From Paracoccaceae bacterium (GTDB taxonomy: Bacteria; Pseudomonadota; Alphaproteobacteria; Rhodobacterales; Rhodobacteraceae), in contig SKWJ01000342.1 of NCBI GenBank assembly GCA_007128995.1, forward strand, positions 1 through 28,110: a stretch of DNA of 28,110 nt. Direction: 5' to 3'. The stretch's first letter is position 1. Every line of letters begins with the position of its first letter. The notes beneath the pieces are model-generated. The model made no database searches. It had not been told where the DNA came from and saw nothing but the letters and a program-made list of their open reading frames with translations. The translations under genes and the position numbers were made by a program. Shown here piece by piece: positions 2,297-19,105 of the stretch.

Positions 2297-2406
2297 TTAA
2301 CAATCAAGAGAAGGGCTTTATCAGCGGCAAGCTGTCTTGACAGGGATAGCCCCTGAGCTGAGCAGATGACGCAGACCGCGTCCAAACGGCGTTGAAAGGT
2401 TGTGAC

Positions 2407-3222
2407 TTGTCAGAGAGCAGACCCTCCGATCTAGACACCGCGCGCCCAAGCGAACGAGGGTCGCACCCTCATGCCGCCACAGCCCTGCGCCGGGTGCTGA
2501 ACGCAGAGGATGGTCAGTTCAACCAGACCTTGATTGCAACCATCCTGCGTCGGCAAGGGTGCCAGACTGTCCTGGCAGAAAATGGGGTCGTTGCCGTCTC
2601 TGAAGCCTTGGCAGCGATGGCTGGTCCGGGACCTTTCGATCTGATCCTCATGGATATGCAGATGCCAGAAATGGACGGCTACTGCGCGACCCGTATCTTG
2701 CGGGACAAGGGGTATTCCAGTCCGATCGTGGCGCTGACGGCCAGCGACAAGGACGGGGACCGGGAGCGCTGTCTGGAAGCAGGCTGCGACGATTATCTGA
2801 CCAAGCCGATTTCTCGACAGGCGCTGCTTGCAGTGCTTCAGTCTTATCTGGAGCCTGAACACGCCGCGCCATTTTCCGCCGCGAGCCCAGAGAAAGAGCA
2901 GGTTGCGGGATTACAAAACGCATCATCCGGCCCTATATTCAGCACTCTGAAGGATGATGTTGAGATGCAGGCAGTTGTTGCCGGCTTTGTGGAGCGGCTC
3001 ACGGCTTTCACGAACGACCTGCAGGCCGCGGGAAAAGACAGGGATACGCCGACGCTCGCGCGTCTGGCGCATCAACTCAAAGGGGCCGCGGGCGGATACG
3101 GGTTCATGCCGGTCAGCGATGCGGCGGCAAGGCTTGAAACGACCATCGCGGATGGCGCGAAAGACGCGGATATTTCCAAAGCTATGGAGTATCTGATCGG
3201 TATTTGTGATCGCGTAAAATAG
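2407..3222 (+). CDS. REC-HPt phosphotransfer protein
   Basis: The protein (271 residues from TTG 2407) has a receiver domain at about 29-147 and an HPt domain at about 175-265. The receiver has the acidic pair in VLNAED (Glu34, Asp35), the phospho-acceptor Asp83 in LILMDMQMPEMDG, a Thr in ALTAS and the invariant Lys133 in DYLTKP. The HPt has AHQLKGAAGGYGF with His222. There is no kinase and no output domain, so it should shuttle phosphate. TTG 2407 is preferred because GAAAGG lies 7 bases upstream; an in-frame TTG at 2392 has no clear ribosome site. It probably forms an operon with the diguanylate cyclase 20 bp downstream. The hybrid kinase at 9318 lacks an HPt, so this protein is its likely partner. 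The receiver resembles those fused to hybrid kinases, so the gene may derive from one. Confidence 0.88.
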   Translation: MSESRPSDLDTARPSERGSHPHAATALRRVLNAEDGQFNQTLIATILRRQGCQTVLAENGVVAVSEALAAMAGPGPFDLILMDMQMPEMDGYCATRILRDKGYSSPIVALTASDKDGDRERCLEAGCDDYLTKPISRQALLAVLQSYLEPEHAAPFSAASPEKEQVAGLQNASSGPIFSTLKDDVEMQAVVAGFVERLTAFTNDLQAAGKDRDTPTLARLAHQLKGAAGGYGFMPVSDAAARLETTIADGAKDADISKAMEYLIGICDRVK

Positions 3223-3242: not shown

Positions 3243-4166
3243 GTGACGAATCCTCAGCTTCAAACTGTTCTTGTCATCGACGATTCTGTCGATATTCATC
3301 ATCTTGTCACGGCGAGGCTGGCATCTGAGCGCATCTCCATACACCATGCCTATAGTGCGGTTGAGGGACTTGAAGCTGCGCGCGACTTGAGGCCTGACCT
3401 GATCCTGCTGGATCTTGATATGCCGGATGCAGACGGCCTGACGCTGTGCGAGGTCCTCAAGGATGACAAGGATCTCGTTCATGTTCCGGTAATCTTTCTG
3501 ACCGGGACACTGGATGTCGAGACCAAGGTTCAGGCGTTCGAACTGGGGGCGGTGGATTATGTCACCAAACCTTTTGACGGTATCGAACTCAAGGCGCGGG
3601 TGCGTTCGGCACTGAGGACAAAACGCTACCATGACCTTCTCAGCACCAAGGCACAAATCGATGCGCTGACCGGCTTGTGGAATCGCAAATATCTGGACGA
3701 TCAGTTGGCCGTGGATATCGCAGGGCTGCATCGTGGCAAGGGGCCAGTGTCACTGCTGATGCTGGATATCGACCACTTCAAACTCATCAATGACACCTAT
3801 GGTCACCCTTTCGGCGATACCGTCATCCAGAAAGTTGCGGATGAATTGAACCAGATGTCGCGGGCAACGGATGTTGTCTGCCGATATGGCGGCGAGGAAT
3901 TCGCCGTCATCCTGAGGGATACAGACAGCCTTGCCGCGCGTAATTTTGCCGAACGGCTGCGTCAGCATGTAGCGCGGCTGGAATTCAACATCCGGGACAA
4001 GATTGTAAAGATCACGATCAGTATCGGGCTTGTCGGCAGCGATCAACTCAAATCGACGCCCGAAGATCCTGCAGCCTTGATAGAAATGGCGGATCAGGCG
4101 CTCTATCGTGCAAAATCCGATGGGCGCAACCGGATCGTCGCAGCGTTTGAGAACAAGGCTGCCTGA
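3243..4166 (+). CDS. Diguanylate cyclase response regulator (REC-GGDEF, PleD-like)
   Basis: This 307-residue protein has a receiver domain (8-125; acidic Asp13-Asp14, phospho-acceptor Asp57 in LLDLDMPDADG, Lys109 in YVTKP) joined to a GGDEF domain (about 135-303). The catalytic motif GGEEF is intact at 216-220. The product-inhibition I-site RATD lies at 207-210, exactly five residues upstream, so an active, feedback-inhibited synthase of cyclic di-GMP is expected. The GTG start at 3243 lies 20 bp after the REC-HPt stop, which indicates co-transcription and a phospho-donor relationship. It lacks the second receiver of classical PleD. By context it is the output of the NO sensing relay, raising c-di-GMP and so adhesion, when phosphorylated at Asp57. 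The link to NO is inferred from gene neighbourhood. Confidence 0.93.
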   Translation: MTNPQLQTVLVIDDSVDIHHLVTARLASERISIHHAYSAVEGLEAARDLRPDLILLDLDMPDADGLTLCEVLKDDKDLVHVPVIFLTGTLDVETKVQAFELGAVDYVTKPFDGIELKARVRSALRTKRYHDLLSTKAQIDALTGLWNRKYLDDQLAVDIAGLHRGKGPVSLLMLDIDHFKLINDTYGHPFGDTVIQKVADELNQMSRATDVVCRYGGEEFAVILRDTDSLAARNFAERLRQHVARLEFNIRDKIVKITISIGLVGSDQLKSTPEDPAALIEMADQALYRAKSDGRNRIVAAFENKAA

Positions 4167-4230: not shown

Positions 4231-7200
4231 TCAGAACTTCCGGATGCTTGTAATCTTCTCTGGCCGTCCCTTGAGCGTGCGCTTGAGCCGCGCAAACCAG
4301 CTTGCCCCGCGATTGTAATGGGCATGGACCATCGCCGGGATCGCCACGTCGAAGTTCATCTTTATACCCCAGATGTCGCCGATATAGCGCCCTTCCTGAC
4401 GCATCCGCTCCAGCAGGTCTTGCGCAGCCGAATAACTCAGCCCGCCATCGCGTTGCAAGATCACGACCAATCGCTGCTCGACATCATGCGCCATCTTGGC
4501 ATCGCCGCAGATCATCACATGGCTGGCAGGATGAAGAAGGTCTTTCGCAACAATCAGGCCATCGGCGTCAAGCGCATCCTGCACATAGGATTTTGCAGGC
4601 CCAGCGCGGGAAAACGCAACATCGACGCGGCTGAGATACCCTTCTGACCGCCACGCAAGGATACGCTTGCGCTCGAGGAACTCGCCCTCGTTGCGACAGC
4701 CGAAGTAAAGCGCCAAAGGTCTGTCTTCGGTCGCCTTCATCCCTCGGGCCACACGCTCCTCGATCGCAGCAAACAGCGGGGCGATCCCGGTGCCTGCCGC
4801 GATCATTATGACCGGACCACCGAGCGTTTCAGGCAGGCGTCTGGGCGCGCGCTTCAAGGCGATCCGAACTGTGGCCCCCGCAGGCTGACGCGCGAGGAAA
4901 TGAGACGCAACCCCCCGGTTCATGCGCGCATTGGCCTGAACGACACTAAGCACGCTGACCATGATCCGCACCTCAGTCGGGTGGGCGACCGGACTGGATG
5001 CGATCGAGTAGAGCCGCGGTTTCAGGCGCGGAAGAAGCTGGATCAGAAGTTCGAAACCCGGAATGTTGTCAGGGAAGGCCTCGAAAAGATCGACGATGGT
5101 CAGATAATCCTGTCGCAGGCGGGCAATCAACTCCTGTCGTTCCGAGGTGTCATCGTCCCCGTTCAGGGTGCGCACCCAGTTGGCCAGACGGTCACGGCCC
5201 TCGCCGCCGACGTCCAGCATGGCCGAAAACAGTTCTTCTGGCGCTTCGGGAAGCGACAGGTCAAGATCCTCAGACAGCAGCTTCCAGACCGAGTACCCAT
5301 CGCGAAAGCGCTCCATCGCGTCATGCGCCGCACCATGTGCCCGAAACCACGCATCTTCAGGCATGCCAAGTTGCGCGCAAAGCTGTGTGACCAGCTCAGC
5401 CGGGTTTTCCGGATAGATGGCGATATGATCGCCGACACCGTAAGCGCCAACGTCTGATTTGGCGTCACCTGTCAGTGCCTTTGGTAGGTTAATCCCGATA
5501 TAGCGGGTCGATCTTTCCAGATCACTCTCGCCCCCGAGAGTGGTCTTGAGCATTTCCTCGTTAAAGCTGATCGTCCCGATGTCCTGCGGATCGGGCCCTT
5601 TCGGTCGCTGAGAGGGAATCAACTCGATCAGTGATCGTAGCGGTGCTTGCACTGCCTGATCAGCCCCCCACTGCTTGAAAAACATCTCGATCCAGCGTTT
5701 GACCGTATCGGCCTGACCGGAGATTTCATCAGCGGTTTCGATCGTGGCCATGCGTTCTGCACCGGCATTAGCCAAGGCTGTATCCACCGTATGGGCTGCG
5801 CGGCAGAAATGCGGATAGATCCGGTTGCCGATGCCGATGACGGCAAAGCGCGTTCCCGACAGCGCATTTGATGCCGCCCCTCGCAGTTCGGCCAGAAGCG
5901 GTTCGCCGCTCTCGGGGACATCTCCGTCCCGGCATGTCGCAACAATGGCCAGCACGCGAGACGCGCTTGCGAGGTCTGCAAGGCTGATATCATTTATCGC
6001 CTTTACATTGGGCGAAAGCCCGGCCAGCCGACGTGCCGCCTGATGGGCGTAACTTTCAGCAGTGCCCGTCTCCGAGGCATAGATGATCAGTGGTTGCGCG
6101 GTTCTGTGACGGGTCGGTGCTGCGCTGACCGTCTCGCCCGAGAGGTCCTCATCCATATGCGCAAGCCAACGGTCCGGGGCGTATTTGTAGATCGGCTTGA
6201 GTTGGAAATCGCGCATCTCATGGTGCCATACCGGGGTGGTCGAACCGCCGGCTGCCGGAACAACCCAGGAGCCTTGCGCAGGGCATTCGCGGCCCGAGCG
6301 TTTCTCGCGCAGGTCATGGATCATGAACTGACGCGAAGCTGTCTGATGATCGACAAGCGTGACACGCGCTTCCTGAAAAGAGTGCAGGATCGCGATGTTC
6401 AGCTCCAGAAATGCGCGATCGCGCCAGAGGGTCCGCTCGCTGGACGTATCGAGCCCCAGCGCTTCGGCAATGTCCATCGCCCGATCATAACGCGCTGGTT
6501 CCCACAGGTCACGGGCGATCTCGGTGCCCATGAACCAGCCATTGAAGGGCGCGCATCCGTAGTGAACACCACCAATCTCAAGATGGAAGTTCGAAATCGC
6601 AGGCACAGCGCACCATTTCAGCCCAAGCTCCGCAATCCGTGGCTCGGTCGGGTGGGTGATGTCCACCTCAAGCACTTCCTTGGGATCTATCGGATAGACT
6701 TTCGGGGCTTCGCCGGGCAGTTCAACCACAAGCGGCAGGATGTCGTAATCGCCTCTTGGCTCTGGCGGGGCCCAGCCAAGGCTCATGATCGCGCGTGTCA
6801 ATTCAAGATTGGCGCGGTCCCCGCGGAGTGTGCCATCAGGCATTTCATAGGCTGCATAGCGCACAAGCTGACTGTTCCAAAGTCGTGGCCCCCAGCGCTC
6901 GCCCGGAGTAAGAGCCCGGAAGACAGTCAGGACGATCTCGATATTGCCGCCATTTGTCGCGGTGCGCAGGTGCTGAATGCACTCATCATAAATCGAGTTC
7001 GCATCGGTGACATGCCGGAAATCCCGAACGATCAGATTCTTCCACGAAATCCGTCCGATACATTTCGGCGCGTTGCGCCATGCCAGCTTTGCGCCATAAT
7101 CCAGCTCTTCGTTGGTATGGGTGTAACTTCCGGTCGCGCGGACTTCATGCGCGATTGCCTTCAACCGTTTCTGCGTCTTGGACGCAGACCACCCAAGTTC

Positions 7201-8223
7201 CTGCGCGACCTGATCGATGAATTTCTGCGCTTCGCTCAGGATGCGCTCCTGCTGGACCATTGGTTCGGAAATGATCCGCGAGACACGATCAAACAGAACC
7301 TGCCAGCCGCTTGTCATCTCCGCGTCCAGCGGCTCGCCGAAACGCGACAGGGTTTCCAAAAGCGGGCCGGCCAGACGCTCGTATTCAGCGGGCGGGATCT
7401 GATTGACCTGATGGATTCTTGCAAGATTGCGCAACTCATCCCGCAGACCTGCGCGATGATCGTCAGCGGCCTGTATCAGGAACACCACCGTGTCGATCAG
7501 GTGACGCGACAGCGCATCCATATTCGCCGTGCGGAAAAGACTGACAAGATCGGGATATGCGTCAAACAGGGACTTGTAGAAAAAGATCCCTGCTTCCTGA
7601 GGGTGCTTGAGCATCGCCTCGGCCCCCGCACGCATGCGCCCCAGGATTTCCGGGGCAAGCGCCGCCTCTTGGGCTTCGCGAATTTTATTCATGGGGGCTT
7701 CGACATGCAGCCTGAAGAACCGTGCCAAAGCCGACTCGTCGCCCTTGGCAAGATCAGCACGTTCGTAGTCTTCCAGATAGGCAGCCTTGGAGAAGGCCCA
7801 GAGAAACGCCTCGCGCGCGGCGTCCCATGTGTCTTCGTCCATCCCGTAAGTGGCGAAGAATGCGCCACAATCTGGAATGTCGCGGCACCGCGCCTCGCGG
7901 GCTGCCGGGGCGATATGGTAGGCTTCCCTCAGCGCCAGTTCCGCCTCTGGATCAAGACCCCGGATGGCAAGGTCGAACAGCAACAGAAACTCAACTGGCG
8001 CTTGAGCCGCGATACTGCCAAGCGCGTCCTCCAGTCCCGGGGACCGGGTCAACAACCGCTCGAAAAACAGGCCGATGAGAATCGTGTCCTGAGCGATGAA
8101 CTTGTTCCAGCTGTCGCGGACCAGCACCCTGTCGACAGACGATAACGCAGGTTCAGACAGCTTTTTCGGTGTGATCTTACGTGCCTGTATGCCTGAATTC
8201 GTGGATAACGATACCTTGTTCAA
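4231..8223 (-). CDS. Self-sufficient nitric oxide synthase: pseudo-globin, globin, NOS oxygenase, FMN and FAD/NADPH reductase
   Basis: This 1330-residue protein should make NO from L-arginine, O2 and NADPH. Residues 27-165 are a globin-like fold without haem ligands (Leu68 at CD1, Phe123 at F8). Residues 190-320 are a second globin with Tyr216 (B10), Phe230 (CD1), proximal His271 and Tyr281. NOS oxygenase (330-690): haem thiolate Cys388 in RNAPKCIGRISW, Glu568 for arginine, Ile543 at the NO-escape gate, Trp653 and Trp666 at the pterin site. FMN domain 711-855, with SETGTAES and IGIGNRIYPHF. Reductase: FAD motif RLYSIASS (1070-1077) and GVASHFL; NADPH motifs AAGTGIAP, SRAGPAKSYVQD and CGDA; FAD-shielding Trp1285. 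No calmodulin helix or N-terminal zinc hairpin is seen. A basic 45-residue tail follows Trp1285. The TTG start has AGGAGAG eight bases upstream. It is convergent with the cyclase and divergent from H-NOX. Confidence 0.95.
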   Translation of the reverse strand: MNKVSLSTNSGIQARKITPKKLSEPALSSVDRVLVRDSWNKFIAQDTILIGLFFERLLTRSPGLEDALGSIAAQAPVEFLLLFDLAIRGLDPEAELALREAYHIAPAAREARCRDIPDCGAFFATYGMDEDTWDAAREAFLWAFSKAAYLEDYERADLAKGDESALARFFRLHVEAPMNKIREAQEAALAPEILGRMRAGAEAMLKHPQEAGIFFYKSLFDAYPDLVSLFRTANMDALSRHLIDTVVFLIQAADDHRAGLRDELRNLARIHQVNQIPPAEYERLAGPLLETLSRFGEPLDAEMTSGWQVLFDRVSRIISEPMVQQERILSEAQKFIDQVAQELGWSASKTQKRLKAIAHEVRATGSYTHTNEELDYGAKLAWRNAPKCIGRISWKNLIVRDFRHVTDANSIYDECIQHLRTATNGGNIEIVLTVFRALTPGERWGPRLWNSQLVRYAAYEMPDGTLRGDRANLELTRAIMSLGWAPPEPRGDYDILPLVVELPGEAPKVYPIDPKEVLEVDITHPTEPRIAELGLKWCAVPAISNFHLEIGGVHYGCAPFNGWFMGTEIARDLWEPARYDRAMDIAEALGLDTSSERTLWRDRAFLELNIAILHSFQEARVTLVDHQTASRQFMIHDLREKRSGRECPAQGSWVVPAAGGSTTPVWHHEMRDFQLKPIYKYAPDRWLAHMDEDLSGETVSAAPTRHRTAQPLIIYASETGTAESYAHQAARRLAGLSPNVKAINDISLADLASASRVLAIVATCRDGDVPESGEPLLAELRGAASNALSGTRFAVIGIGNRIYPHFCRAAHTVDTALANAGAERMATIETADEISGQADTVKRWIEMFFKQWGADQAVQAPLRSLIELIPSQRPKGPDPQDIGTISFNEEMLKTTLGGESDLERSTRYIGINLPKALTGDAKSDVGAYGVGDHIAIYPENPAELVTQLCAQLGMPEDAWFRAHGAAHDAMERFRDGYSVWKLLSEDLDLSLPEAPEELFSAMLDVGGEGRDRLANWVRTLNGDDDTSERQELIARLRQDYLTIVDLFEAFPDNIPGFELLIQLLPRLKPRLYSIASSPVAHPTEVRIMVSVLSVVQANARMNRGVASHFLARQPAGATVRIALKRAPRRLPETLGGPVIMIAAGTGIAPLFAAIEERVARGMKATEDRPLALYFGCRNEGEFLERKRILAWRSEGYLSRVDVAFSRAGPAKSYVQDALDADGLIVAKDLLHPASHVMICGDAKMAHDVEQRLVVILQRDGGLSYSAAQDLLERMRQEGRYIGDIWGIKMNFDVAIPAMVHAHYNRGASWFARLKRTLKGRPEKITSIRKF

Positions 8224-8779
8224 CCTTTACTCTCCTACAGGCCTTCGTCGTCACAGAATGCCAACAGCTCAAATATTGTGCAACTTACTAACTCAGTATT
8301 CAGGGTAAACCACAACTTTGGCATGTGCGCCAAGTGCAATTTTGGGGCAACCAGACAATATTCCAAAAAATCTGCGCGCGTGCGCTGCGGGACCCAATAA
8401 TTTTGGACAGTTCGCCCATTGATGAGTGACTTTGCAACAATATGAGCGAATAAAGTTAACAGGGCCTTCATCTGTATTTGCCAACATTTGTCAAAGGATG
8501 GTAAATTACAGGGGTGACCTTTGTACAGAATACAGTTTGAGATCGACATGCCGCATTATCAGACCAGACGCATACAGGCATTTCGACAGATGCTTTTTGC
8601 AGCCGATGCTTTATCTTTGTGATGCTAAGGTGTTTCCGGTGCTCGCCGCATTCCCGCCCAGGGGACCCTCTTGCGCTGACTCGGGGCGCTGTGGCCTATG
8701 GTAACGAGACGGAATTCGAACGCAGGCAAGTTCCTGAAGCGCAAGCAAAGACCATGTTGCAGACAGAGAAGATGACGCC
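8224..8779. other. Long divergent regulatory region between the NO synthase and H-NOX genes
   Basis: This 556-bp spacer looks AT-richer than its surroundings and has no credible gene. Short open frames inside it lack ribosome sites and family motifs. It must carry promoters for both divergent units. It contains a near-palindrome at 8477-8495 (listed separately), a short repeat TTGGC / GCCAA (8318-8333), and the word AATTTTGG at 8338 and 8398 with AACTTTGG at 8314. I saw no FNR-type TTGAT-N4-ATCAA site. Confidence 0.5.
8477..8495. promoter_or_regulatory. Near-palindrome, candidate operator for the NO synthase / H-NOX pair
   Basis: TTTGCCAA (8477-8484) and TTGTCAAA (8488-8495) are complementary at 7 of 8 positions around the spacer CAT. 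It lies 254 bp upstream of the synthase start and 285 bp upstream of H-NOX, near the middle of the divergent spacer, so one dimeric regulator could act on both. The TTTG...CAAA ends are loosely reminiscent of CRP/FNR-family sites, but the spacing is not that of known NnrR or FNR boxes. Confidence 0.35.
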
Positions 8780-9325
8780 ATGTATGGAATGATCCACCAA
8801 GCGCTACGCATCATGGTCCTTCAACATGTTGAAGAGGCAGAATGGGAAACGCTTCTGCGTACTTCGGATCATACCGAGCCGCTGTTCATCGGGATGGAGT
8901 ATTATTCGGACGCAACAACGATGGAGCTGATACATCTTGTATCAGCGCATCTGCGCATGCCGCTGGACGACACTCTCCGTCAGCTTGGATGTGTCTGGAT
9001 CGATTTTGCGGGCGCGTCCGAGTATGGGCGAATCCTGCGGATGGCAGGGGATGATTTTGTTTCGTTCCTTGAAAGCCTGGATCGGATGCATGCCAGTATC
9101 CGCTCCAACATGCCCAAAGCAGAGATGCCATCATTTGAACTGATTTCGGCTGATGACGCCGAGTTGCAGGTGCGATATCGCTCGACACGCACTGGTCTGG
9201 CGCCGATGGTGCAAGGTATTTTGCTGGCAACGGCCGAACGCTTTGACGAGCGCGTAGAGGTGACTTACCTTCCCGAGGATGGAGGCGCTTTGTTCTGCAT
9301 CCAGCGAAAGTCACTTAATGGCTGA
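8780..9325 (+). CDS. H-NOX haem nitric oxide sensor
   Basis: This 181-residue stand-alone H-NOX domain begins with the family hallmark MYGMIHQALR. The proximal haem ligand is His104 in DRMHASI. The haem-distorting Pro is in MPSF (116-119), and the propionate-binding YxSxR motif is intact (Tyr133, Ser135, Arg137 in YRSTRTGL). The distal position that is Tyr in O2-binding H-NOX proteins is hydrophobic here (Pro142-Met143). It should therefore bind NO and discriminate against O2, as in sensors of facultative or aerobic bacteria. The ATG at 8780 is chosen because it gives the canonical N-terminus. The next gene, the H-NOX-associated hybrid kinase, starts before this stop codon, so the two are translationally coupled. 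The NO source is probably the synthase encoded divergently. In characterised relatives, NO-bound H-NOX changes the activity of the partner kinase. Confidence 0.95.
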   Translation: MYGMIHQALRIMVLQHVEEAEWETLLRTSDHTEPLFIGMEYYSDATTMELIHLVSAHLRMPLDDTLRQLGCVWIDFAGASEYGRILRMAGDDFVSFLESLDRMHASIRSNMPKAEMPSFELISADDAELQVRYRSTRTGLAPMVQGILLATAERFDERVEVTYLPEDGGALFCIQRKSLNG

Positions 9326-10994
9326 AGAAACTCTTGAAGACCCCGGAAAGATGCAGACAAGCCTGCTGCTTGCTGATGACGAAATCGCGCGGTTGTTTCC
9401 GGCATATCTGAAACTCTGTCCGGAAGGGCGGATCTGCGAAGCAGGCCCATCGCTTCTGCGTCACAAAGGGCCGGGACTACTGGGGCAGCCGCTGCATGAC
9501 GCTGTTTCGTTCGAACTGCCCGCCAACAATCTCGATATAGCGGCCTTGCGAAAGCACAGGCGCGCAATCATCCTTCGGCTCAACGGCGGCACAACCCTGC
9601 GGCTGCGTGGTCTGGTGCTGGATCGCGGCGATGCGATCTGGCTTTTGCTGGGCCACATCCCGGATCTGGAACTCGGCGAAGAGATGCAACCCTTGCGCAT
9701 CGCAGATTTCTCACCGACAGATGGCACACTTGACATGATGCTTGCGGCAGAAATGCGGTCAGGCCTGCTTTCGGAAACCCGGGCGCTGGCCGCTGCGCTG
9801 GATGTGCAGCGCAATCAGGCGGAAGCGGCCAACCGGGCGAAAAGCGCGTTTCTGACAACGATGAGCCATGAAATCAGAACGCCGATGAATGCCGTTCTGG
9901 GGGTTGCGAGCATTCTTGCTGAAACCGATATCACACAGGAACAGCGCGAATGGCTTGATGTGATGGTCGATTCAGGTCAATCCCTCATGGGGCTTCTGAA
10001 CAATATTCTGGACCTGTCCAAAATCGAATCCGGTGCCATGGGGATAAACCCCGAAGAATTTGACCTGCGTGCGCTGGGCAGGTCCGTCCACGGGCTATAC
10101 GCACCGACAGCGGCCGCGAAAGGCGTCAAGGCTGAGCTTGAGATGGCCCTCGAAGGTACGTTGTATATCGGCGATTCCGTGCGCATCCGTCAAATTCTGT
10201 CCAATCTGGTCGGAAACGCGACAAAATTCACCGAGGCCGGGAAAATCATAGTCTCACTTCACGATCAGGTCGAGGGAGAGACGCGCCAGCTTTACGTGTC
10301 GGTCAAGGATACCGGCATTGGTATCTCTGCCGAGGCGATCGATCGCCTGTTCAATGTCTTCGCCCAGGCCGACAGCTCGACCACGCGGCGATATGGCGGA
10401 ACCGGGCTCGGGCTGTCCATCTCGAAGCTGCTATGTGAGCAGATGGGCGGCGAGATCACAGTCGAAAGCCGCCTTGGCCGGGGCTCTACCTTCACTGCAC
10501 GGATACCCATCGAACTGGCGGCAGAGCCAGATCAGCCTGCCCCCGCGCCAGACGAGGGTCTGGCCCTTGCGCTGGTCGGGCCGCGCCACGTCCTTATTGT
10601 GGATGACAATGCGACCAACAGGAAAATCCTGTCGCATTACTTGCGCCGACTGGGCCATAGTTTTGATGTCGCCGTGAATGGACAGCAGGCGCTTGTCGCC
10701 TGGGAAGAGCGTGACTACGACGTCATCATCATGGATATAGAAATGCCGGTTCTGGACGGGTTGGAAGCCACGCGTGAATTGCGCCGCAGAGAGATTGCAT
10801 CCGTGCGCGATTACACCCCGATCATCGCCCTGTCTGCGGATGCGATGATCGAGAAGCGGGAAACCGCGCTAAGCGTGGGGATGGATGACTATCTGACCAA
10901 GCCTGTCGGTCTGCGCGAAATCGAGGAACGTATCCAGGTTATCTGTGCGCGCAGCGATCAAACCCTGCGCGCCGTGCCGCAGGAAAGCCGCTAA
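9318..10994 (+). CDS. H-NOX-associated hybrid histidine kinase (HNOBA-HisKA-HATPase-REC)
   Basis: From ATG 9318 the protein has 558 residues. An H-NOX-associated PAS-like region spans about 10-145, followed by a short coiled linker. The dimerisation/phospho-acceptor domain has His184 in MSHEIRTPMN. The ATPase domain has an N-box (NLVGNATKFTEAG), a G1 box (DTGIGI) and a G2 box (GGTGLGLSI). A C-terminal receiver has Asp430-Asp431, the phospho-acceptor Asp473 in IIMDIEMPVLDG and Lys528 in YLTKP. No transmembrane segment is seen, so it is cytosolic and takes its signal from H-NOX. ATG 9318 overlaps the H-NOX stop (9323-9325) and is preferred to an in-frame ATG at 9279. It has no HPt domain, so a separate one is needed to pass phosphate from Asp473; the REC-HPt protein at 2407 fits. 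This connection is inferred from context. Confidence 0.93.
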   Translation: MAEETLEDPGKMQTSLLLADDEIARLFPAYLKLCPEGRICEAGPSLLRHKGPGLLGQPLHDAVSFELPANNLDIAALRKHRRAIILRLNGGTTLRLRGLVLDRGDAIWLLLGHIPDLELGEEMQPLRIADFSPTDGTLDMMLAAEMRSGLLSETRALAAALDVQRNQAEAANRAKSAFLTTMSHEIRTPMNAVLGVASILAETDITQEQREWLDVMVDSGQSLMGLLNNILDLSKIESGAMGINPEEFDLRALGRSVHGLYAPTAAAKGVKAELEMALEGTLYIGDSVRIRQILSNLVGNATKFTEAGKIIVSLHDQVEGETRQLYVSVKDTGIGISAEAIDRLFNVFAQADSSTTRRYGGTGLGLSISKLLCEQMGGEITVESRLGRGSTFTARIPIELAAEPDQPAPAPDEGLALALVGPRHVLIVDDNATNRKILSHYLRRLGHSFDVAVNGQQALVAWEERDYDVIIMDIEMPVLDGLEATRELRRREIASVRDYTPIIALSADAMIEKRETALSVGMDDYLTKPVGLREIEERIQVICARSDQTLRAVPQESR

Positions 10995-11519: not shown

Positions 11520-13124
11520 TCATGTTCTTGCGGTGGCGCGCGCCACCGCATCCTCTATGGCCGCCTTGTCAAAACCCAGCCAGCGGGCCGCGACATGCTG
11601 ATCAGGCCGGACAAGATAGATCGCGCCTGCAGCCTCTCCAAGATACCGCGCGGCGAGCGCGTGATTTCCATCTGTACTGAGTGACAGCGTTGTCAGCACG
11701 ACACCGTCACAGGAAATCCCCTTGGGACAGTCGATATTGATCGCCAGAAGCGCAAAACCGGACGGAAGACAGTCCAGAAGCCACCCTTCAGCCACGGGCG
11801 CATCACACAGCGGCGCGCCCGGGCGGGTTCGCTGTGGCAAACCTGTGGCATCATTGCCATTCAGCGGCCCGTCATCATAGATGCTTGGCGTCGACAGCCG
11901 TCCCGAATTGACCAGCGGGCGCGCAAACGGATGGCGCGCTGCGAGGTCCAGCACAGCGTTGCGGAAGATCTGGCTGATTTCTGACTTGGGCGTGATGAAA
12001 TCGGTCGCGCGCGTCGAATGGGTGATATTCTCATCTGCCGCGTAGACGCGTTCCCAATTATAGCTGTCAATCAGGCGCTCTGGCGCATCCCCGGCCAGAA
12101 CAAGCGCGAGTTTCCAACCCAGATTGTCCGCATCCTGTATCCCGGAATTCGCCCCGCGTGCCCCAAATGGCGACACCTGATGCGCGGCATCTCCGGCGAA
12201 CAGAACCCGGCCCTGACGGAACCTGGCCATACGGCGACACTGAAACGTATAGATGGATACCCAATCGAGTTCGAAGGCCACATCCTCGCCCAGCATTGCC
12301 TTCAAGCGGGGGATGACCCGCTCTGGGCGTTTTTCGGCCTCGACATCAATATCCCAGCCCAGTTGCAGGTCGATCCGCCAGACATTTTCGGGCTGCCGGT
12401 GCAGCAGCGCAGACTGGCCCCGGTTGAAGGGTGGGTCAAACCAGAACCAGCGCTCGGTCGGGAATTCCGCCTGCATGATCACATCGGCGATCAGGAAATT
12501 ATCCTCAAAAACGCGACCGACGAAATCCAGTCCCATCATCCGGCGCGTGGGCGAGTTGGCACCGTCGCAAGCGACCAGCCAGTCGGCCTGCAATTCATAA
12601 GGGCCTTCGGGGGTTTCGACCTCCAACCGCACATGATCATCATGTGCGCCGATCGCCTCGACCCGGTTGCGCCCGCGGATCTCGATTGGTTTACCAGCGG
12701 CGGCAAGCGCCTGAACACGGTCGAACAGGAATTTTTCCAGATGATATTGCTGCAGATTGATGAAAGCCGGGCGCTTATGGCCATCTTCGGGCAGCAGGTC
12801 GAATTCGTAAATCTCGCGCTCATCGAAAAAGACGCGCCCCCGACCCCAGGTCACGCCCTTGTCAACGCTCTCATCCCCGCAGCCCAGCCGGTCAAGGATT
12901 TCAAGCGTGCGCTTGGCAAAGCAGATCGCGCGCGAGCCGAAACTCACGCGGTCATTCTCATCCAGCACCAGAACCGGAATATCGCGCGACGCCAGATCAA
13001 GGGCCAGCGCCAGTCCCACAGGCCCTGCCCCGACGACGATGACCTTGTGACGCCGCACCACATTGTCATCCTGATCAGGGTGGCGCGCATAGGGGTAAAG
13101 GGGGATTTCGAAAATCTTGCTCAT
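11520..13124 (-). CDS. FAD-dependent aromatic-ring monooxygenase (MhpA/PHBH-like)
   Basis: This 534-residue flavoprotein is of the group A aromatic hydroxylase class. In order it has the Rossmann motif VVGAGPVGLALALDLA (32-37 is GAGPVG), the DG motif in LVACDGANSPTRR (Asp190-Gly191, FAD/NADPH), and the GD motif in VLFAGDAAHQVSPFGARG (314-315). A C-terminal part of about 150 residues looks like the thioredoxin-like tail of the 3-hydroxyphenylpropionate or phenol hydroxylase branch. It should hydroxylate a phenolic acid using NAD(P)H and O2. Co-location with hmgA and fahA suggests it produces homogentisate or another diol for this route, for instance from a hydroxyphenylacetate, but the substrate is not readable. 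The start at 13124 is chosen for GGGAAAGGA just upstream. An in-frame GTG at 13151 would add nine residues. Confidence 0.85.
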   Translation of the reverse strand: MSKIFEIPLYPYARHPDQDDNVVRRHKVIVVGAGPVGLALALDLASRDIPVLVLDENDRVSFGSRAICFAKRTLEILDRLGCGDESVDKGVTWGRGRVFFDEREIYEFDLLPEDGHKRPAFINLQQYHLEKFLFDRVQALAAAGKPIEIRGRNRVEAIGAHDDHVRLEVETPEGPYELQADWLVACDGANSPTRRMMGLDFVGRVFEDNFLIADVIMQAEFPTERWFWFDPPFNRGQSALLHRQPENVWRIDLQLGWDIDVEAEKRPERVIPRLKAMLGEDVAFELDWVSIYTFQCRRMARFRQGRVLFAGDAAHQVSPFGARGANSGIQDADNLGWKLALVLAGDAPERLIDSYNWERVYAADENITHSTRATDFITPKSEISQIFRNAVLDLAARHPFARPLVNSGRLSTPSIYDDGPLNGNDATGLPQRTRPGAPLCDAPVAEGWLLDCLPSGFALLAINIDCPKGISCDGVVLTTLSLSTDGNHALAARYLGEAAGAIYLVRPDQHVAARWLGFDKAAIEDAVARATART

Positions 13125-13205
13125 GGCATCCTTTCCCGGCGGGTTCGACACGGATCAGACACGATCCGCCCACGACAACACAATGATTCAGGTCAAGCCG
13201 TCGCC

Positions 13206-14156
13206 TTAGCCCTGTAACGCGGCCCACATCTGCAGATCGCGTTCGGCGGTCCAGATCCGTGGCGTATCAATGCCACGGGCCTCATCATAGGCGCGGGCGA
13301 CATTAAAGGGCAGACAATGTTCATAGATCGCGTAATCGGCAAATTTCGGATCACAGGCAGCGCGGACCGCGTCCCAGGTCTCTTTCAGGCTGCCGCCGCG
13401 CGCTGCAACCGTCACAGCAGGCCGATAGGTCGAAGCAACGAAATCGCGCGTATTCTCTATCGCGGTATCGACCATCTCACGGCCCATCAGCGCATCGCCC
13501 CGACCGGGTGCGATCGCATCGACTTCGTGGCGTTTGATCGCATCCAGCGTGGTGCCCCAGTCACGAAAATGTCCGTCGCCGCAGTAGCAGGCCGAGTGAT
13601 ATTCCACGATATCACCTGTGAAAATGACGTTTTCATCGGGCACATGGATGACGATGTCACCCGCTGTATGCGCCCGGCCCAGATGCATCAGATCGACCCG
13701 GCGATTGCCCAGATAGATTGACATGCGGTCCTTGAACGTGGTGGTGGGCCAGGTCAGGCCGGGGATATCCTCATGCCCCTGAAACAGGCGTGGGAAGCGC
13801 TGGAATTCGCTGTCCCAGTCTTCCTGCCCGCGCTCGACCACCATCGCGCGTGCAGTGTCCGACATCAGGATTTGCGGCGCGCCATAAGCCGAGGCCCCCA
13901 GCACGCGCACCGCATGATAATGCGTCAATGCCAGATGGCTGATCGGCTTGTCGGTGACACTGCGGATACAATCGATCACCTTTTGCGCAAGGCGCGGCGT
14001 GGCCTGTGCTTCGACCACCATCACAGACTCGTCCCCGATGATGACACCGGAATTGGGATCACCTTCAGCGGTGAAGGCATAAAGCCCGCGGCCGATTTCG
14101 GTGAAGCTGGTTTTCTTCTCGCTCATATCGCCCTGAGACGCGAATGCTTTGGCCAT
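13206..14156 (-). CDS. Metallo-beta-lactamase-fold protein with only one metal site
   Basis: This 316-residue protein has the MBL-fold layout. The usual HxHxDH motif reads HYHAVR (His79, His81, then Val83 and Arg84 where Asp and His belong). Motif 3 is RAHTAGD (His163), motif 4 is FTGDIVE (Asp182), and the final PGHG motif reads PGRG (Arg219). Residues of the first metal site are therefore kept, while the three ligands unique to the second site are all replaced. Relatives include glyoxalase II-like hydrolases and enzymes near aromatic-catabolism genes. A hydrolytic or thioester-related role is possible, but the changed site makes a standard binuclear hydrolase doubtful. AAAGGA precedes ATG 14156. 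It sits between fahA (72 bp upstream) and the FAD hydroxylase (81 bp downstream), most likely in one operon. Confidence 0.8.
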   Translation of the reverse strand: MAKAFASQGDMSEKKTSFTEIGRGLYAFTAEGDPNSGVIIGDESVMVVEAQATPRLAQKVIDCIRSVTDKPISHLALTHYHAVRVLGASAYGAPQILMSDTARAMVVERGQEDWDSEFQRFPRLFQGHEDIPGLTWPTTTFKDRMSIYLGNRRVDLMHLGRAHTAGDIVIHVPDENVIFTGDIVEYHSACYCGDGHFRDWGTTLDAIKRHEVDAIAPGRGDALMGREMVDTAIENTRDFVASTYRPAVTVAARGGSLKETWDAVRAACDPKFADYAIYEHCLPFNVARAYDEARGIDTPRIWTAERDLQMWAALQG

Positions 14157-14228
14157 GGTGGTATCCTTTGATCAGATGGCCGGATTGTCCTGTCGGGGGT
14201 TTCCAGCCAGAGTTTCGGTCAAGTGGTG

Positions 14229-15485
14229 TCAGCGCGCATACGGGTCTTTCAAGGCCGGAAGGACCCGGCCCGAACAGGGGCCGAAACCGATCTGGTACTC
14301 GTCAGCCATGGCCGCGCCGCGCAAGGTCACAGTGTCGCCATCTTCCAGAAAGCTGCGCGAGACGCCACCGATATCTATCGGTGTCTCACCGCCCCAGCTC
14401 AGCTCCAGAAGGCTGCCCCGGTTTCCGGCTTGCGGCCCCGAGATCGTGCCTGATCCGAGAAGATCGCCCACCCGCATGAGGCATCCGCTGGTCGTGTGAT
14501 GGGCAAGTTGCTGGGCAGCGGAATAATAAAGCTCTCGGGCATTGGTCCGCGAAATCGTAACAGGCGGCCTGCCTTCTGCTTCAAGAACGACGTCCAGCGC
14601 GATGTCGTAATGCATGGGGCCGCAATCCGCCAGATGAGGCAGAAGCGGCAGCACGCGCCTGGGCGCAGCCACGCGGAACGGCTCCAGCGCGGCCCGCATC
14701 ACGATCCAGGGGCTGAGCGTGGTCGCGGTGGATTTGGCCTGAAAGGGGCCAAGCGGCTGGTATTCCCAAGCCTGAATATCCCGTGCGGACCAGTCATTCA
14801 GCAAGACATAACCGAAGATCATGTCATCAGCTTCGGCAACCGTGATCGGCCCTTGGGATGGTTGACCGACGATCGCGCCCAGTTCCAGTTCAAGGTCAAA
14901 CCGGGCAGAGGGTGCAAAATGCGGCGTTTGCGTGTCTCGCCCCTTAAGCTGTCCCCAGGGACGCCGGATATCCGTGCCAGAGACAACGACCGACGATGCG
15001 CGCCCGTTATACCCGATCGGAATGTGCAGCCAGTTCGGCGGCAGCGCGTTTTCCGCGCCCCGGAACATGGTTCCGACATTGGTGGCATGATGCAGGCTTG
15101 CATAAAAATCCGTATACTCGGCCACTGAGAAAGGCAGGTGCAAGTCTGCTGCGTCCATCGGGTGCAGGAACGGCTCAACGCTGGCGCGCTCGGGGGCATC
15201 TGCTTGCAACAATGTCGTGAGTTGCGCGCGCAGGTCGCCCCAGGCGCGCGGGCCACAGGCCATCAGCGCATTCCAGGAGGGGGCTGCAAGCACCGGGCGA
15301 TCGGACAGCCGCAGCAGCCCTGCACTTTCAAGGCCGGTGGCGTCGAGGATCTGATCACCGATCGCGACACCGCAGCGCGCCCCATACCTGTTCGGGTGCG
15401 TGAAAACACCCAGCGGAAGGTTGTTGAGCGGGAAGGGGCAGCCGGGCGCGTTGGCAGCCGCGATCCAGGATCGTATCAGCGGCAT
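14229..15485 (-). CDS. fahA: Fumarylacetoacetase
   Basis: This 418-residue enzyme hydrolyses 4-fumarylacetoacetate to fumarate and acetoacetate, the last step of tyrosine/homogentisate breakdown. The residues of the mammalian active site are recognisable. Asp126 is in EYTDFY, the catalytic His pair is 132-133 in SLHHATNVG, and metal ligands Glu199 and Glu201 are in LELELGAIVG. Asp231 is in LLNDWSARDIQAWEY and Lys251 in GPFQAKS. The N-terminal SH3-like domain is present (about 1-115). Length matches the family. The start at 15485 is supported by GGAG six bases upstream; the longer open frame upstream is low-complexity Arg/Pro/Ala and is not part of the protein. A short ORF with a strong ribosome site overlaps its start. 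It forms part of the hmgA-fahA catabolic cluster. Confidence 0.95.
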   Translation of the reverse strand: MPLIRSWIAAANAPGCPFPLNNLPLGVFTHPNRYGARCGVAIGDQILDATGLESAGLLRLSDRPVLAAPSWNALMACGPRAWGDLRAQLTTLLQADAPERASVEPFLHPMDAADLHLPFSVAEYTDFYASLHHATNVGTMFRGAENALPPNWLHIPIGYNGRASSVVVSGTDIRRPWGQLKGRDTQTPHFAPSARFDLELELGAIVGQPSQGPITVAEADDMIFGYVLLNDWSARDIQAWEYQPLGPFQAKSTATTLSPWIVMRAALEPFRVAAPRRVLPLLPHLADCGPMHYDIALDVVLEAEGRPPVTISRTNARELYYSAAQQLAHHTTSGCLMRVGDLLGSGTISGPQAGNRGSLLELSWGGETPIDIGGVSRSFLEDGDTVTLRGAAMADEYQIGFGPCSGRVLPALKDPYAR

Positions 15486-15577
15486 CGCGGGCTCCGCAGG
15501 GCGGCGGGGCGGCGCGGGGGTGACGCAACCCGGACCCGGCAGGCGGCCGGGACGCGCTGATCGGTGATGTGCTGCAT
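15476..15577 (-). CDS. Possible 33-residue leader peptide overlapping fahA
   Basis: ATG 15577 is preceded by GGGGGAGGACTCGATC, one of the strongest ribosome sites in the window. The short frame encodes an Arg/Pro/Ala-rich peptide (starting MQHITDQRVPAACRVRVAS) and stops at 15476, overlapping the fahA start by 10 bases. This geometry suits a translated leader that couples or attenuates fahA expression. It has no recognised family and could be chance, but the ribosome site would otherwise have no purpose. No other gene uses it. Confidence 0.35.
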   Translation of the reverse strand: MQHITDQRVPAACRVRVASPPRRPAALRSPRCR

Positions 15578-15875
15578 GATCGAGTCCTCCCCCTTGGCCC
15601 GCAGGATAGGCAAACCGCAGCCGAGCGCAAGACCTGGGCGCAAGGCCCGCGGCAGGGGCGGGGTGGCGCAACTTCCGCACACCCGGCAAGGTATTGATAT
15701 GGCAAGGTCACCGGACGGCGTTAACCGGATTGAAACTTTTGGCCGGGGCGATCTGCCAAGCCTGATCCCGTGTCGGCGCCGATCTGGCCACAGCTTGACT
15801 GCCGTGTTTCTTGCGCCGCGATGGAACGCTCCAAGCGCCGGGTCCCGTCTCCAGACGTGCAGCCCTGCTGTCTGG
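15578..15875. other. Spacer between DUF2383 gene and fahA leader
   Basis: These 298 bp are GC-rich and carry no recognisable gene. They probably contain the promoter of the fahA-MBL-hydroxylase-DUF2783 operon (minus strand), but no clear -35/-10 pair or symmetric operator could be picked out. Confidence 0.35.
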
Positions 15876-16328
15876 TCAGGCCGGGGTCGCCATCAGTGCG
15901 TCGATCTTGCCGATGTTGGCCAAAACCCCGTTGCGCTGCGTCTTGACCGCCTTGACCTCGGCAGGTTTGAACGCGTCGCCACCGATTTCGGTTTCGCGCA
16001 GCGTGTCGTCATAGGCCTCAAGCAGCCGCTTCTCGCCATCGCGCAGGCCGGGAAGCAGGCTTTCTTCATCGGCCGTGACAAGAAACCGGGCATTCAGCAC
16101 GAATTTGTGCACAAGGCTCATGTAAGAACCATCGGCATCCGGGCGTTCGCCGCGCGCAAGCAGCAGGCCAGCGATGTCATGCGCGTGAGTCATATGTGTG
16201 CGCTTCAGGTCCGTGCAAAGCGCGCCAACCTGGTCGCGTTTGGCAATGTCGGCGGCCTCATCATAACCTTTGACGGCGTCCACAACGGTCGTATGCAATT
16301 TCGAGAGTATTTCAATCGGGCTTGGCAT
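15876..16328 (-). CDS. DUF2383 family four-helix-bundle protein
   Basis: This 150-residue helical protein (starting MPSPIEILSKLHTTVVDAVKGYDEAADIA) matches the DUF2383 / PA2169-like ferritin-like family. The members are small helical bundles with conserved acidic and His residues and unknown biochemical role, often stress-associated. Visible candidates for metal binding are in KRTHMTHAHDIAGLL and the acidic TADEESLLPGLRDGE segment. The ATG at 16328 has an excellent ribosome site (AGGAGC, spacing 6). Its start codon overlaps the TAA of an upstream small frame in the sequence TAATG, suggesting translational coupling. It lies between hmgA and fahA, but nothing in it points to homogentisate metabolism, so it may be an insertion into the cluster with a separate function. 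Confidence 0.8.
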   Translation of the reverse strand: MPSPIEILSKLHTTVVDAVKGYDEAADIAKRDQVGALCTDLKRTHMTHAHDIAGLLLARGERPDADGSYMSLVHKFVLNARFLVTADEESLLPGLRDGEKRLLEAYDDTLRETEIGGDAFKPAEVKAVKTQRNGVLANIGKIDALMATPA

Positions 16329-16507
16329 TATATGCTCCTGTCGCATCGGATGGGTATGACGGGAAACGAGGAAAGACAGGTTTGGGTTCCATGACCGGTG
16401 TCTGTGCGCCTGTGCTGCATCTGCGCGCACCCGCTTCCGCGCAGGCCGGGGCCGGGGCCAAAAGCAAGGGTAGCGGCCAGCGCGACCGGCTTGAGGGAAT
16501 GGGACAT
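16312..16507 (-). pseudogene. Possible frameshifted gene for a small exported peptide upstream of DUF2383
   Basis: ATG 16507 has CGGAG eight bases upstream and begins MSHSLKPVALAATLAF, like the start of a signal peptide. In this frame the sequence then becomes unprotein-like and ends in TAA at 16328. One base over, the other frame reads LLLAPAPACAEAGARRCSTGAQ and continues to a stop at 16312, which is a good hydrophobic core, an AxA cleavage site and a Pro-rich tail. Joining the two near 16460 gives a small secreted or periplasmic protein of about 65 residues. Either the gene is broken by a single-base change, or the sequence has an error there, or the short frame is the real one and only serves to couple translation of DUF2383. 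Confidence 0.3.
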
Positions 16508-16836
16508 TGATGAAACTCCGAATATGTTAAAAAAAATTCGGGATACCCAACGGACCCTCCGCTGATCAAGATCAAAGGTGTCGGCACCACGGATCGACAA
16601 TTTGATAACTTATGGTTACCAGGTGCCCTCAAAACGCCCATGCGGCTGGATGTCTGGCCGCATCAGCGCGCGTGCAGATAGCCGAACTGCGCTTCGCCAT
16701 GGTCCATGATATCTTCCATCAGCGGGGCGAAGACGGTGGGTCTGCGGGGCTTGGGTCATGGCAGGGTCCTGCGGTCGGGGCAGATGGCAGGATGCCTGGT
16801 GCAGGTAAAGATTTCGCAGATGGGCCGCGCGCGGGG
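16508..16836. other. Spacer downstream of hmgA
   Basis: This 329-bp spacer probably contains the end of the hmgA transcript and a promoter for the DUF2383 unit. AT-rich sequence TTAAAAAAAATTC at 16527-16539 suits a promoter region. On the minus strand, around 16670-16760, a short frame reads TVFAPLMEDIMDHGEAQF before its stop. It looks protein-like but has no start with a ribosome site, so it may be a gene remnant. No clear terminator was seen. Confidence 0.35.
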
Positions 16837-18198
16837 TTATTTCAGCCCCGGCGTGCCATCGAATTTTTTCTCGATCCCATCCCAGCAATCGACATAGTCG
16901 TCCTGCAGCGGCGCCTCGCGCGCTGCAAACTCTGTCAGATGCTGCGGGAACCGGGTTTCGAACATGAAGGACATGGTATTGTCCAGTTTTTCGGCCTTCA
17001 GATCGGCGTTGGATGCGCCTTCAAACGCATTGCGATCCGGCCCATGGGGCAACATCATGTTGTGAAGCGACATGCCGCCGGGAACGAATCCTTTCGGTTT
17101 CGCATCATACTGGCCATAGATATTGCCCATCAGTTCCGACATGATGTTCTTGTGATACCACGGCGGGCGGAAGGTGTCCTCGGCCACCATCCAGCGTTCA
17201 CGGAACAGCACGAAATCGATATTTGCCGTACCGGGAACGCCAGAGGCGGCGGTCAGCACTGTGAAGATCGAGGGGTCGGGGTGGTCAAACAGGATTGCGC
17301 CGACCGGGCAATAGCTGCGCAGGTCATATTTTACTGGTGCATAATTCCCATGCCAGGCCACCACATCCAAAGGCGAATGGCCGATCTCACACATATGGAA
17401 CTGACCACACCATTTGATGGTCAGGGTTGAGGGTGCCTCGTGATCCTCGAATGCAGCAACAGGTGTCTTGAAGTCGCGGCGATTGGCCATGCAGTTTGCG
17501 CCAATCGGGCCGCGCCCCGGCAATTCGAATTTCTGACCATAGTTTTCACAGACGAACCCGCGCGCCGGCCCCTCGAGCACTTCGACACGATAGACAAGCC
17601 CGCGCGGGAGGATCGCGATCTCCTTGGGTTCCAGATCAATGACGCCCAGTTCCGTGCAGAAGCGCAACCGGCCTTCCTGCGGCACCACCAGCAATTCACT
17701 GTCAGCCGAATAGAAATAGGCATCTTTCATGGAGTCGGTGACCAGATAGATATGACTGGCCATGCCCACCTGAGTATTCACATCGCCGGCCGTCGTCATC
17801 GTGCGCATGCCTGTCAGCCATGTCAGCCGCTGATCTGTATGGGGCACCGGGTCCCAACGGTATTGGCCAAGGCTGATCACATCTGGCACAATGCAGGGCG
17901 CGCTTTTCCAGTAGGGCAGATCGACCCGCGCATAGCGCCCCGAATGTTTGACCGATGGCCGGATGCGGTAGCACCATGTACGCTCGTTCTGATGGCTGGG
18001 GGCCGTGAAGGCCGTGCCTGAGAGCTGTTCGCCATAAAGCCCGTAATTGCATTTCTGAGGCGAGTTCATTCCCTGCGGCAGCGCACCGGGCAAGGCTTCG
18101 GTTTCAAAGTCATTGCCGAAGCCGGGCATGTAGCCTTCATGCGGGCCAGCCTGAGACGGCGCACGAACCATTCCCTGCGGCAAGTCATGGCGTGTCAT
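16837..18198 (-). CDS. hmgA: Homogentisate 1,2-dioxygenase
   Basis: This 453-residue enzyme opens the ring of homogentisate to maleylacetoacetate with Fe(II) and O2, the central step of tyrosine and phenylacetate-type catabolism. The N-terminus [20 protein letters not shown] is a family signature. The iron ligands are His349 in PPWYHKN, Glu355 in MSELMG and His385 in MLPHGPD. The active-site His306 in [13 protein letters not shown] is also present. Length matches the family (about 430-450). ATG 18198 follows AGGGGG at five bases. A palindrome 40 bp upstream of the start is a likely operator. It is followed, after a spacer, by the DUF2383 gene and then fahA. Maleylacetoacetate isomerase, which normally works between HmgA and FahA, is not in this window. 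Confidence 0.96.
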
Positions 18199-18237
18199 GG
18201 CAACCCCCTGTCATACATACATGCCCCGATGTTATTG

Positions 18238-18251
18238 GTTGCACTTGCAAC
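18238..18251. promoter_or_regulatory. Palindromic operator candidate upstream of hmgA
   Basis: GTTGCACTTGCAAC is a 6-bp perfect inverted repeat (GTTGCA / TGCAAC) around CT, lying 40 bp upstream of the hmgA start. Its length and symmetry suit a MarR- or IclR-like regulator of aromatic catabolism. A tandem ATGTATGTATG tract follows on the minus strand between it and the ribosome site. The cognate regulator is not evident in the window. Confidence 0.45.
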
Positions 18252-18339
18252 GATGTCAAGAATATCCTGCGCGTTCGGCCCGTTCCGGCGCGCTGATTGC
18301 CAGCCATTGACAAAGCCGTGCCCAGCGCCGCCAGCAAGT

Positions 18340-18377: not shown

Positions 18378-18405
18378 ACGCGCCCTGCCTGACGCAACGC
18401 CAGTT

Positions 18406-19011: not shown

Positions 19012-19105
19012 GTCGTTCACATAACGCAATTCTGCGCCAGCGAAAGGCACGTTTTGCTCACACAGGGCGCACAAAGCAGAGAGTTGCCGATCGCGCGAAG
19101 AGGGA

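Follow-up and report, generated by a model that had tools for sequence, protein, structure and literature searches.

A nitric oxide synthase with pseudoglobin and globin domains but without a C2 domain, encoded beside an H-NOX and a histidine kinase in an alphaproteobacterium

Do bacteria use nitric oxide (NO) made by their own nitric oxide synthase (NOS) as a signal? Reports of such signalling have been called scarce (PMC5539425), and one review recommends that gasotransmitter not be used as a term for bacteria (PMC6195638). The question is raised by a contig of a Paracoccaceae bacterium (GenBank assembly GCA_007128995.1, contig SKWJ01000342.1; the window hereafter is the whole analysed stretch of 28,110 nucleotides), where a gene for a globin-NOS, a NOS fused to globin and reductase domains, lies among genes for an H-NOX protein, a histidine kinase and a diguanylate cyclase. 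A locus that holds a synthase, a scavenger, a receptor of the soluble guanylate cyclase (sGC) type, a kinase and a diguanylate cyclase makes the question of an endogenous NO signal directly testable. As predicted from its genes, the organism may own a circuit that makes, senses and responds to NO like that of animals. The enzyme class is already known, and the testable circuit adds weight to the locus beyond the protein alone. The analysis describes a well-supported variant of the globin-NOS family: a clade without the C2 domain, a striking conserved tail and a gene linkage, likewise conserved, with an NO receptor.

The globin-NOS is encoded by an open frame of 1331 codons, which starts with TTG at 8223 and whose stop ends at 4231; it is the only NOS gene in the source assembly (3.2 Mb, 545 contigs, 79% complete). 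The top solved relative is syNOS of Synechococcus PCC 7335 (PDB 9q15), in a single phmmer alignment of residues 28-1313 with chain residues 178-1468 (1111 bits). According to its 2026 cryo-electron microscopy structures (PDB 9Q05/9Q06/9Q0X/9Q0Y/9Q15; PMC12922734), syNOS begins with a C2 domain of 134 residues and contains a haem-less pseudoglobin and a haem globin. The window gene comprises the following parts:

4231..8223, minus strand: globin-NOS of 1330 amino acids without C2 domain, in the order pseudoglobin, globin, NOS oxygenase, flavin mononucleotide (FMN) domain, flavin adenine dinucleotide (FAD)/NADPH domains (open reading frame, Pfam, phmmer against PDB)
7684..8142, minus strand: pseudoglobin domain, residues 28-180, haem-less by homology (match to syNOS pseudoglobin 178-330, E 3.6e-24; AlphaFold 2 model and fold match)
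7264..7659, minus strand: haem globin domain, residues 189-320, with Tyr216, Phe230 and His271 (alignment residues)
6166..7251, minus strand: NOS oxygenase domain, residues 325-686, with haem Cys388, arginine-binding Glu568 and Ile543 (PF02898, 473 bits)
4477..6087, minus strand: diflavin reductase, with flavodoxin 713-842, FAD 927-1109 and NADPH 1140-1249 (Pfam)
4234..4377, minus strand: C-terminal tail of 48 residues, starting with DIWG (1283) and ending I-R-K-F-COOH at F1330; residues 1314-1330, the final 17, extend past the syNOS C-terminus

Pfam matches globin at 215-315, NO_synthase at 325-686, flavodoxin at 713-842, FAD_binding_1 at 927-1109 and NAD_binding_1 at 1140-1249. Pfam, phmmer and fold matches of AlphaFold 2 (AF2) models agree that the predicted folds and their order equal those of syNOS, C2 excepted. 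The AF2 models cover two overlapping pieces, residues 1-322 and 187-1330, the latter with 52 rows, a predicted local distance difference test (pLDDT) score of 80.2 and a predicted template modelling (pTM) score of 0.56. These results bear out a preliminary description of this DNA, which read from the sequence a self-sufficient globin-NOS-reductase chain of 1330 residues of the syNOS kind; the gene lies on the minus strand. The two globin-like domains proposed at 27-320 have globin folds, the first by its AF2 model and the match to syNOS 178-330 and the second by its AF2 model and the Pfam match, but the first of them is a pseudoglobin. We infer that it binds no haem from its homology to syNOS and from the absence of a conserved His, as no column of the alignment in this region has His above 59%. 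The suggestion that the tandem globin might be undescribed falls away, since the same pseudoglobin-globin pair has been described structurally in syNOS (PMC12922734).

Conservation was read from an alignment of 115 rows, made from 526 oxygenase matches, of which 120 were listed and five proteins shorter than 1190 amino acids dropped. The haem globin aligns to Hell's Gate globin I and to a roadblock-fused globin, and flavohaemoglobins match weakly (E 0.018); its ligands, proximal His F8 (His271), Tyr B10 (Tyr216) and Phe CD1 (Phe230), are present in 113-114 of the 115 rows. The haem Cys388, arginine-binding Glu568 and haem-stacking Trp382, whose catalytic roles are those of NOS structures, each occur in 115/115 rows, the 63 of the C2-less clade included. 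The same holds for Ile543, which we take to be the bacterial-type residue of the Val/Ile switch; Ile at this switch goes with slow NO release. By domains and catalytic residues the protein is a type II bacterial NOS (globin, oxygenase and reductase), with predicted activity, and a syNOS-like combination of NOS and NO dioxygenase (NOD) chemistry is highly probable.

The window protein differs from syNOS in having only 27 residues ahead of the pseudoglobin, and hence no N-terminal C2 domain. When a C2 domain from a cyanobacterium served as query against the protein's own genome (79% complete), no separate C2 protein was found, a weak negative in a search with no positive control. Extra N-terminal residues, 102-230 in number, are carried by 41 of the 115 rows, all of which match the N-terminus of the Desmonostoc protein (this query is among them); another eight rows have 58-95 extra residues that do not match it. 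We placed the oxygenase domains in a tree of 130 rows, built by a quick method with the SH-like approximate likelihood ratio test (SH-aLRT) as the only support and with long outgroup branches. Here 63 of the 66 rows with a short N-terminus, the window protein included, form one clade (SH-aLRT 93), whose sister is a clade of 52 rows with all 41 C2 rows (SH-aLRT 84). The three remaining short rows (P0111, P0076 and P0102) fall inside the C2 clade and may represent late losses of C2 or mis-called starts. The C2-bearing proteins, among which Spirosoma and the cyanobacterium Desmonostoc are named, share the core domains with the window protein, but unlike it have a C2-like N-terminus and variable tails. 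Globin-NOS has been named in cyanobacteria and Spirosoma linguale (PMC6104048). Among the matches listed in the literature searched, with subscription journals largely outside the search, neither a C2-less or alphaproteobacterial globin-NOS nor a C2-less globin-NOS beside an H-NOX/hybrid kinase pair was found described.

The absence of C2 is accompanied by differences elsewhere in the chain. In syNOS, Arg107 of C2 pairs with Glu568 (syNOS numbering) of the oxygenase (PMC12922734), the equivalent of which in the window protein is Gln417. Counted in the 115-row alignment alone, this residue is Glu in 41/41 C2 rows, against 37/63 with Glu and 22/63 with Gln in the C2-less clade. The motif RNAPKC at the haem cysteine is found in 61/63 rows of the C2-less clade and 4/41 C2-bearing rows. 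As the clade of the latter holds the sole named cyanobacterial row, the RNAP that the preliminary description took as shared with cyanobacterial NOS follows no such rule. The 2026 model of syNOS has C2 as necessary for NO synthesis and as a proposed gate between NOS and NOD (PMC12922734). The C2-less clade poses a sharp problem for this model, with 63 rows that lack C2, keep the catalytic residues and mostly bear a different tail of fixed length.

Other arrangements were seen as well. Paraliomyxa miuraensis (L004, 8001-11768) has a globin-NOS with a C2-like N-terminal stretch, as judged by eye, and its globin has seemingly lost the proximal His (LGRTYREHSIP against LARIHQVNQIP in the window). 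In two Myxococcota NOS (L005, 8001-11477; L006, 7812-9632), which branch outside the globin-NOS clade, the pseudoglobin is joined straight to the oxygenase and the intervening haem globin is missing, so a pseudoglobin can exist without the dioxygenase globin.

The C-terminal tail is the second distinguishing feature of the clade. The syNOS tail is reported to consist of 27 residues in two helices, which lock the FMN domain and bind the globin (PMC12922734). The window protein aligns to the end of syNOS at residue 1313 and continues for 17 more residues. Counted from D-x-W-G, the tail has a length of exactly 48 residues in 61/62 C2-less-clade rows with the motif, and in 1/39 C2 rows; an ending of the form I/V-x-x-aromatic is found in 52/62 tails of the clade and 0/39 C2-bearing tails. 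The NOS proteins read from four further genomes (G398, G405, G360 and G1060) also have tails of 48 residues, ending SIQKF, SIRSY, GIRTF and SIQRF. In the AF2 model, residues 1327-1330 (IRKF) have a mean pLDDT of 91 and form a strand at 1327-1329, against 49-68 for the preceding blocks of the tail. We infer from this model that the end of the tail may be a docked latch.

The genes around the NOS, which the preliminary description missed together with the absence of C2 and the clade-specific extension, are as follows:

8224..8779, no strand: divergent intergenic region of 556 bp between NOS and H-NOX (about 450-556 bp in four genomes if the start codons correspond)
8780..9325, plus strand: H-NOX (haem NO-binding, HNOB) of 181 amino acids, with His104 and a YRSTR motif at 133 (PF07700, 133 bits)
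9279..10994, plus strand: H-NOX-associated hybrid histidine kinase (HisKA-HATPase-REC), overlapping H-NOX (Pfam; H-box, N-box and REC Asp motifs)
2392..3222, plus strand: REC-Hpt phosphotransfer protein (Pfam; Hpt H-x-LKG motif)
3243..4166, plus strand: REC-GGDEF diguanylate cyclase with a GGEEF motif and an RxxD I-site, convergent with NOS (Pfam, motifs)

The closest solved relatives of the H-NOX are Nostoc Alr2278 (111 bits), to the haem-ligand position of which His104 aligns, and sGC beta-1 (65 bits). YxSxR is present, and the residue five positions after its R is Pro; this site, of interest for NO selectivity, may correspond to Tyr140 of TtH-NOX, the distal Tyr of the O2-binding type. HNOBA is the domain that follows H-NOX in sGC. 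The N-terminus of the kinase matches HNOBA at 24.7 bits in G1060 (cut-off 23.4) and below the cut-off in G398 and G405. The intergenic region shows little conservation in a three-genome alignment, and no FNR/NnrR-type box common to such regions was found, a loose pattern occurring in two of six stretches, that of the window not among them.

The linkage of NOS to H-NOX and kinase extends beyond the source genome. NOS is rare in the source genus, with a full-length globin-NOS in 3/37 genomes, four more having short reductase matches only, and in all three (the source genome, G398 and G405, the last being the same record as L003) NOS and H-NOX-kinase are divergent neighbours. NOS is also found in three of six genomes of a second genus (G360, G1060 and G1059). 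G1060 has the same divergent order on one contig. In G360 the two units stand at two facing contig ends, which is consistent with linkage and not proof of it, and the NOS contig of G1059, 3,440 bp long, carries NOS only and is uninformative on neighbours. The divergent core is thus present on 4/4 informative contigs from two genera, and the hybrid kinase adjoins H-NOX in five NOS-bearing genomes. The outer flanks inspected differ among the genomes, so the linkage is not simple synteny. The NOS gene has a GC content of 0.591 and the sequence downstream one of 0.60-0.62, with no hint of recent foreign origin. A plasmid collection searched with the NOS protein gave 205 matching records, in none of which the match spans 80% or more of the query; of the 20 records listed among the 205, most match in the reductase and two in the oxygenase, and there is no sign of a plasmid-borne NOS gene in this collection.

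H-NOX of any type occurs in 10/37 genomes of the source genus. In two congeners, H-NOX-kinase pairs of the NOS-linked type, but without NOS, lie at contig ends (L084, 5411-6567; L085, 4034-5118). The genome G398, with its NOS locus and six contigs, has two further distant H-NOX genes of equal scores, one of them on a different contig (C1:56129-56599 and C4:219403-219873).

The reading that we favour by a little is that of a synthase/dioxygenase of the syNOS type without the C2 domain, which responds to Ca2+, feeding an H-NOX circuit, all activities being predicted. NADPH electrons would pass through FAD and FMN to the oxygenase haem, probably that of the partner subunit, where L-arginine and O2 would be converted to citrulline and NO. 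The haem globin, reduced by the FAD domain, would oxidise NO to nitrate before its release, and one chain would thus set the amount of NO that escapes. The pseudoglobin would serve as a structural bridge from globin to oxygenase at the dimer. The fixed-length tail ending I-x-x-aromatic, in place of C2, would act as an internal latch choosing between NO synthesis and NO oxidation; that it substitutes for C2 is a tentative and somewhat doubtful proposal. Escaped NO would be read by H-NOX, which would control the HNOBA-type hybrid kinase, and it is slightly more probable than the converse that NO made by the NOS is the H-NOX ligand. If NO is released slowly beside a dioxygenase globin, little of it would be free at any time, as would suit a signal detected by a neighbouring sensor of high affinity. 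In the source genome the phosphate might reach REC-Hpt and REC-GGDEF and so alter cyclic di-GMP. With the His and Asp phospho-acceptor motifs, the RxxD I-site and GGEEF all in place, a relay of four steps made up of H-NOX, kinase-REC, Hpt and REC-GGDEF is possible. The chance that REC-Hpt and REC-GGDEF are wired to the H-NOX kinase of the window is close to even, if slightly short of it. The whole may be viewed as a single-locus gasotransmitter module, with a self-sufficient synthase, a globin off-switch, control by a docking tail rather than Ca2+, an sGC-type H-NOX/HNOBA kinase receptor and, in the source genome, output through Hpt and a diguanylate cyclase. Such a module would be the bacterial counterpart to the animal NOS-sGC pathway; in this full form the reading is doubtful.

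A number of observations speak against parts of this reading. The terminal aromatic is absent in 10/62 tails of the clade, the AF2 model that holds the tail has a pTM of only 0.56, and the tail-bearing rows are not independent, because they all belong to one clade. P0111, P0076 and P0102, with short N-termini inside the C2 clade, do not have the I-x-x-aromatic tail, which suggests that the tail marks the clade rather than the absence of C2 as such; Glu is still the commonest residue at the C2-contact site of the C2-less clade. The kinases of the window and G360 have no HNOBA match. No close match to REC-Hpt or REC-GGDEF was found near NOS in G398, G405 or G360, and the G1060 contig has none, only the kinase's own REC matching; these two genes stand beside NOS in the source genome only. 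This type of H-NOX-kinase is also present in G399 and G417, which have no NOS, so the sensor unit can exist by itself and work on other NO. In the H-NOX tree the NOS-linked proteins form a clade in 8% of 200 bootstrap trees, that is, no clade is resolved. Finally, syNOS with C2 deleted has no NOS activity (PMC12922734), so a natural enzyme without C2 might not make NO.

This last point is the starting position of one rival explanation, in which the enzyme works chiefly as an NADPH-dependent NO dioxygenase in place of a flavohaemoglobin, the oxygenase is silent or weak without C2, and H-NOX and the kinase regulate a detoxification gene across the divergent promoter. Deletion of C2 from syNOS does not slow the reduction of the globin (PMC12922734), and the haem-globin ligands are kept nearly throughout the alignment. 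Divergent regulator-target pairs are common. The invariance of Cys388, Glu568 and Trp382, however, is unexpected for a dead domain, and the kinase ends in REC with no DNA-binding match; we regard this explanation as unlikely. Another possibility is nitrogen recycling, whereby arginine nitrogen is turned into nitrate as proposed for syNOS, and H-NOX senses other NO, for instance from denitrifiers, the linkage being incidental or a matter of co-regulation only. The in vitro NO to nitrate ratio of syNOS, about 1:3, and the benefit of its expression to E. coli under nitrogen limitation (PMC7554344) agree with this, as do the two congeners with H-NOX-kinase but without NOS. Yet the NOS/H-NOX linkage is kept across two genera though the inspected flanks change, and the neighbours scanned, some but not all of the flanking open reading frames, include no recognised gene of arginine or nitrate metabolism; nitrogen recycling is likewise judged unlikely. 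The preliminary description had offered for the globin the conversion of NO to nitrate, the sensing of O2 or NO, and the supply of O2 to the oxygenase. The first is the best-supported role of the haem globin. Its homologue in syNOS has been described as a dioxygenase of NO that the FNR domain reduces (PMC12922734). A globin acting as O2 sensor or donor instead is favoured only by its compatible fold and haem ligands, and is very improbable given this homologue and the retention of Tyr B10.

The preferred reading, a C2-less synthase/dioxygenase feeding H-NOX, has precedents in part. NOS combined with H-NOX signalling is not new: Silicibacter sp. TrichCH4B has a pathway of NOS, H-NOX and kinase (Rao, Smith and Marletta 2015, mBio, via PMC8738867, PMC5563961 and PMC9500659), in which a diguanylate cyclase is inhibited by phosphorylation (PMC8738867). 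It too is an alphaproteobacterium in which NOS goes together with a pathway from H-NOX and a histidine kinase to a diguanylate cyclase, as predicted for the window locus. Both gene families, NOS and H-NOX, are also found in Microscilla bins (PMC5563961). Compared with syNOS, which likewise has a pseudoglobin before the haem globin, the window protein lacks C2, has Gln417 in place of the salt-bridge Glu and adds 17 C-terminal residues with a conserved terminal aromatic, and of the two it is the window gene for which linkage to H-NOX is known here. With the animal NOS-sGC system the locus shares a reductase-fused NOS, an H-NOX of the sGC beta-1 family and, in an orthologue, an HNOBA-type partner domain; it differs in its histidine kinase and probable cyclic di-GMP output instead of cyclic GMP, in the absence of calmodulin and in the built-in globin.

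In wider samples, NOS was found in 1/385 genomes of the class sample (the source genome), in 3/394 of the family sample (the source genome, G360 with a globin-NOS and G275 with oxygenase pieces) and in 4/390 of the order sample, which gave G440, G606 and G650, matched by the query over the oxygenase only. The oxygenase-only NOS of G650 and G275, of the same family, adjoin a B12-binding radical SAM protein (L055, 9366-12199; L056, 9109-11955), possibly pointing to a biosynthetic use of NO; the NOS of G275 is split over two adjacent open frames. A Balneolaceae metagenome-assembled genome (L025, 7468-12440) has a stretch resembling NOS, interrupted by in-frame stops in the span read; several response-regulator and kinase matches follow on the other strand. 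Farther along the window, 11520-21849 on the minus strand is occupied by genes of aromatic catabolism, encoding an FAD monooxygenase, a metallo-hydrolase, fumarylacetoacetase (TIGR01266), homogentisate dioxygenase hmgA (TIGR01015), an aldolase of the LigK type and a relative of extradiol dioxygenases that scores below the curated cut-off.

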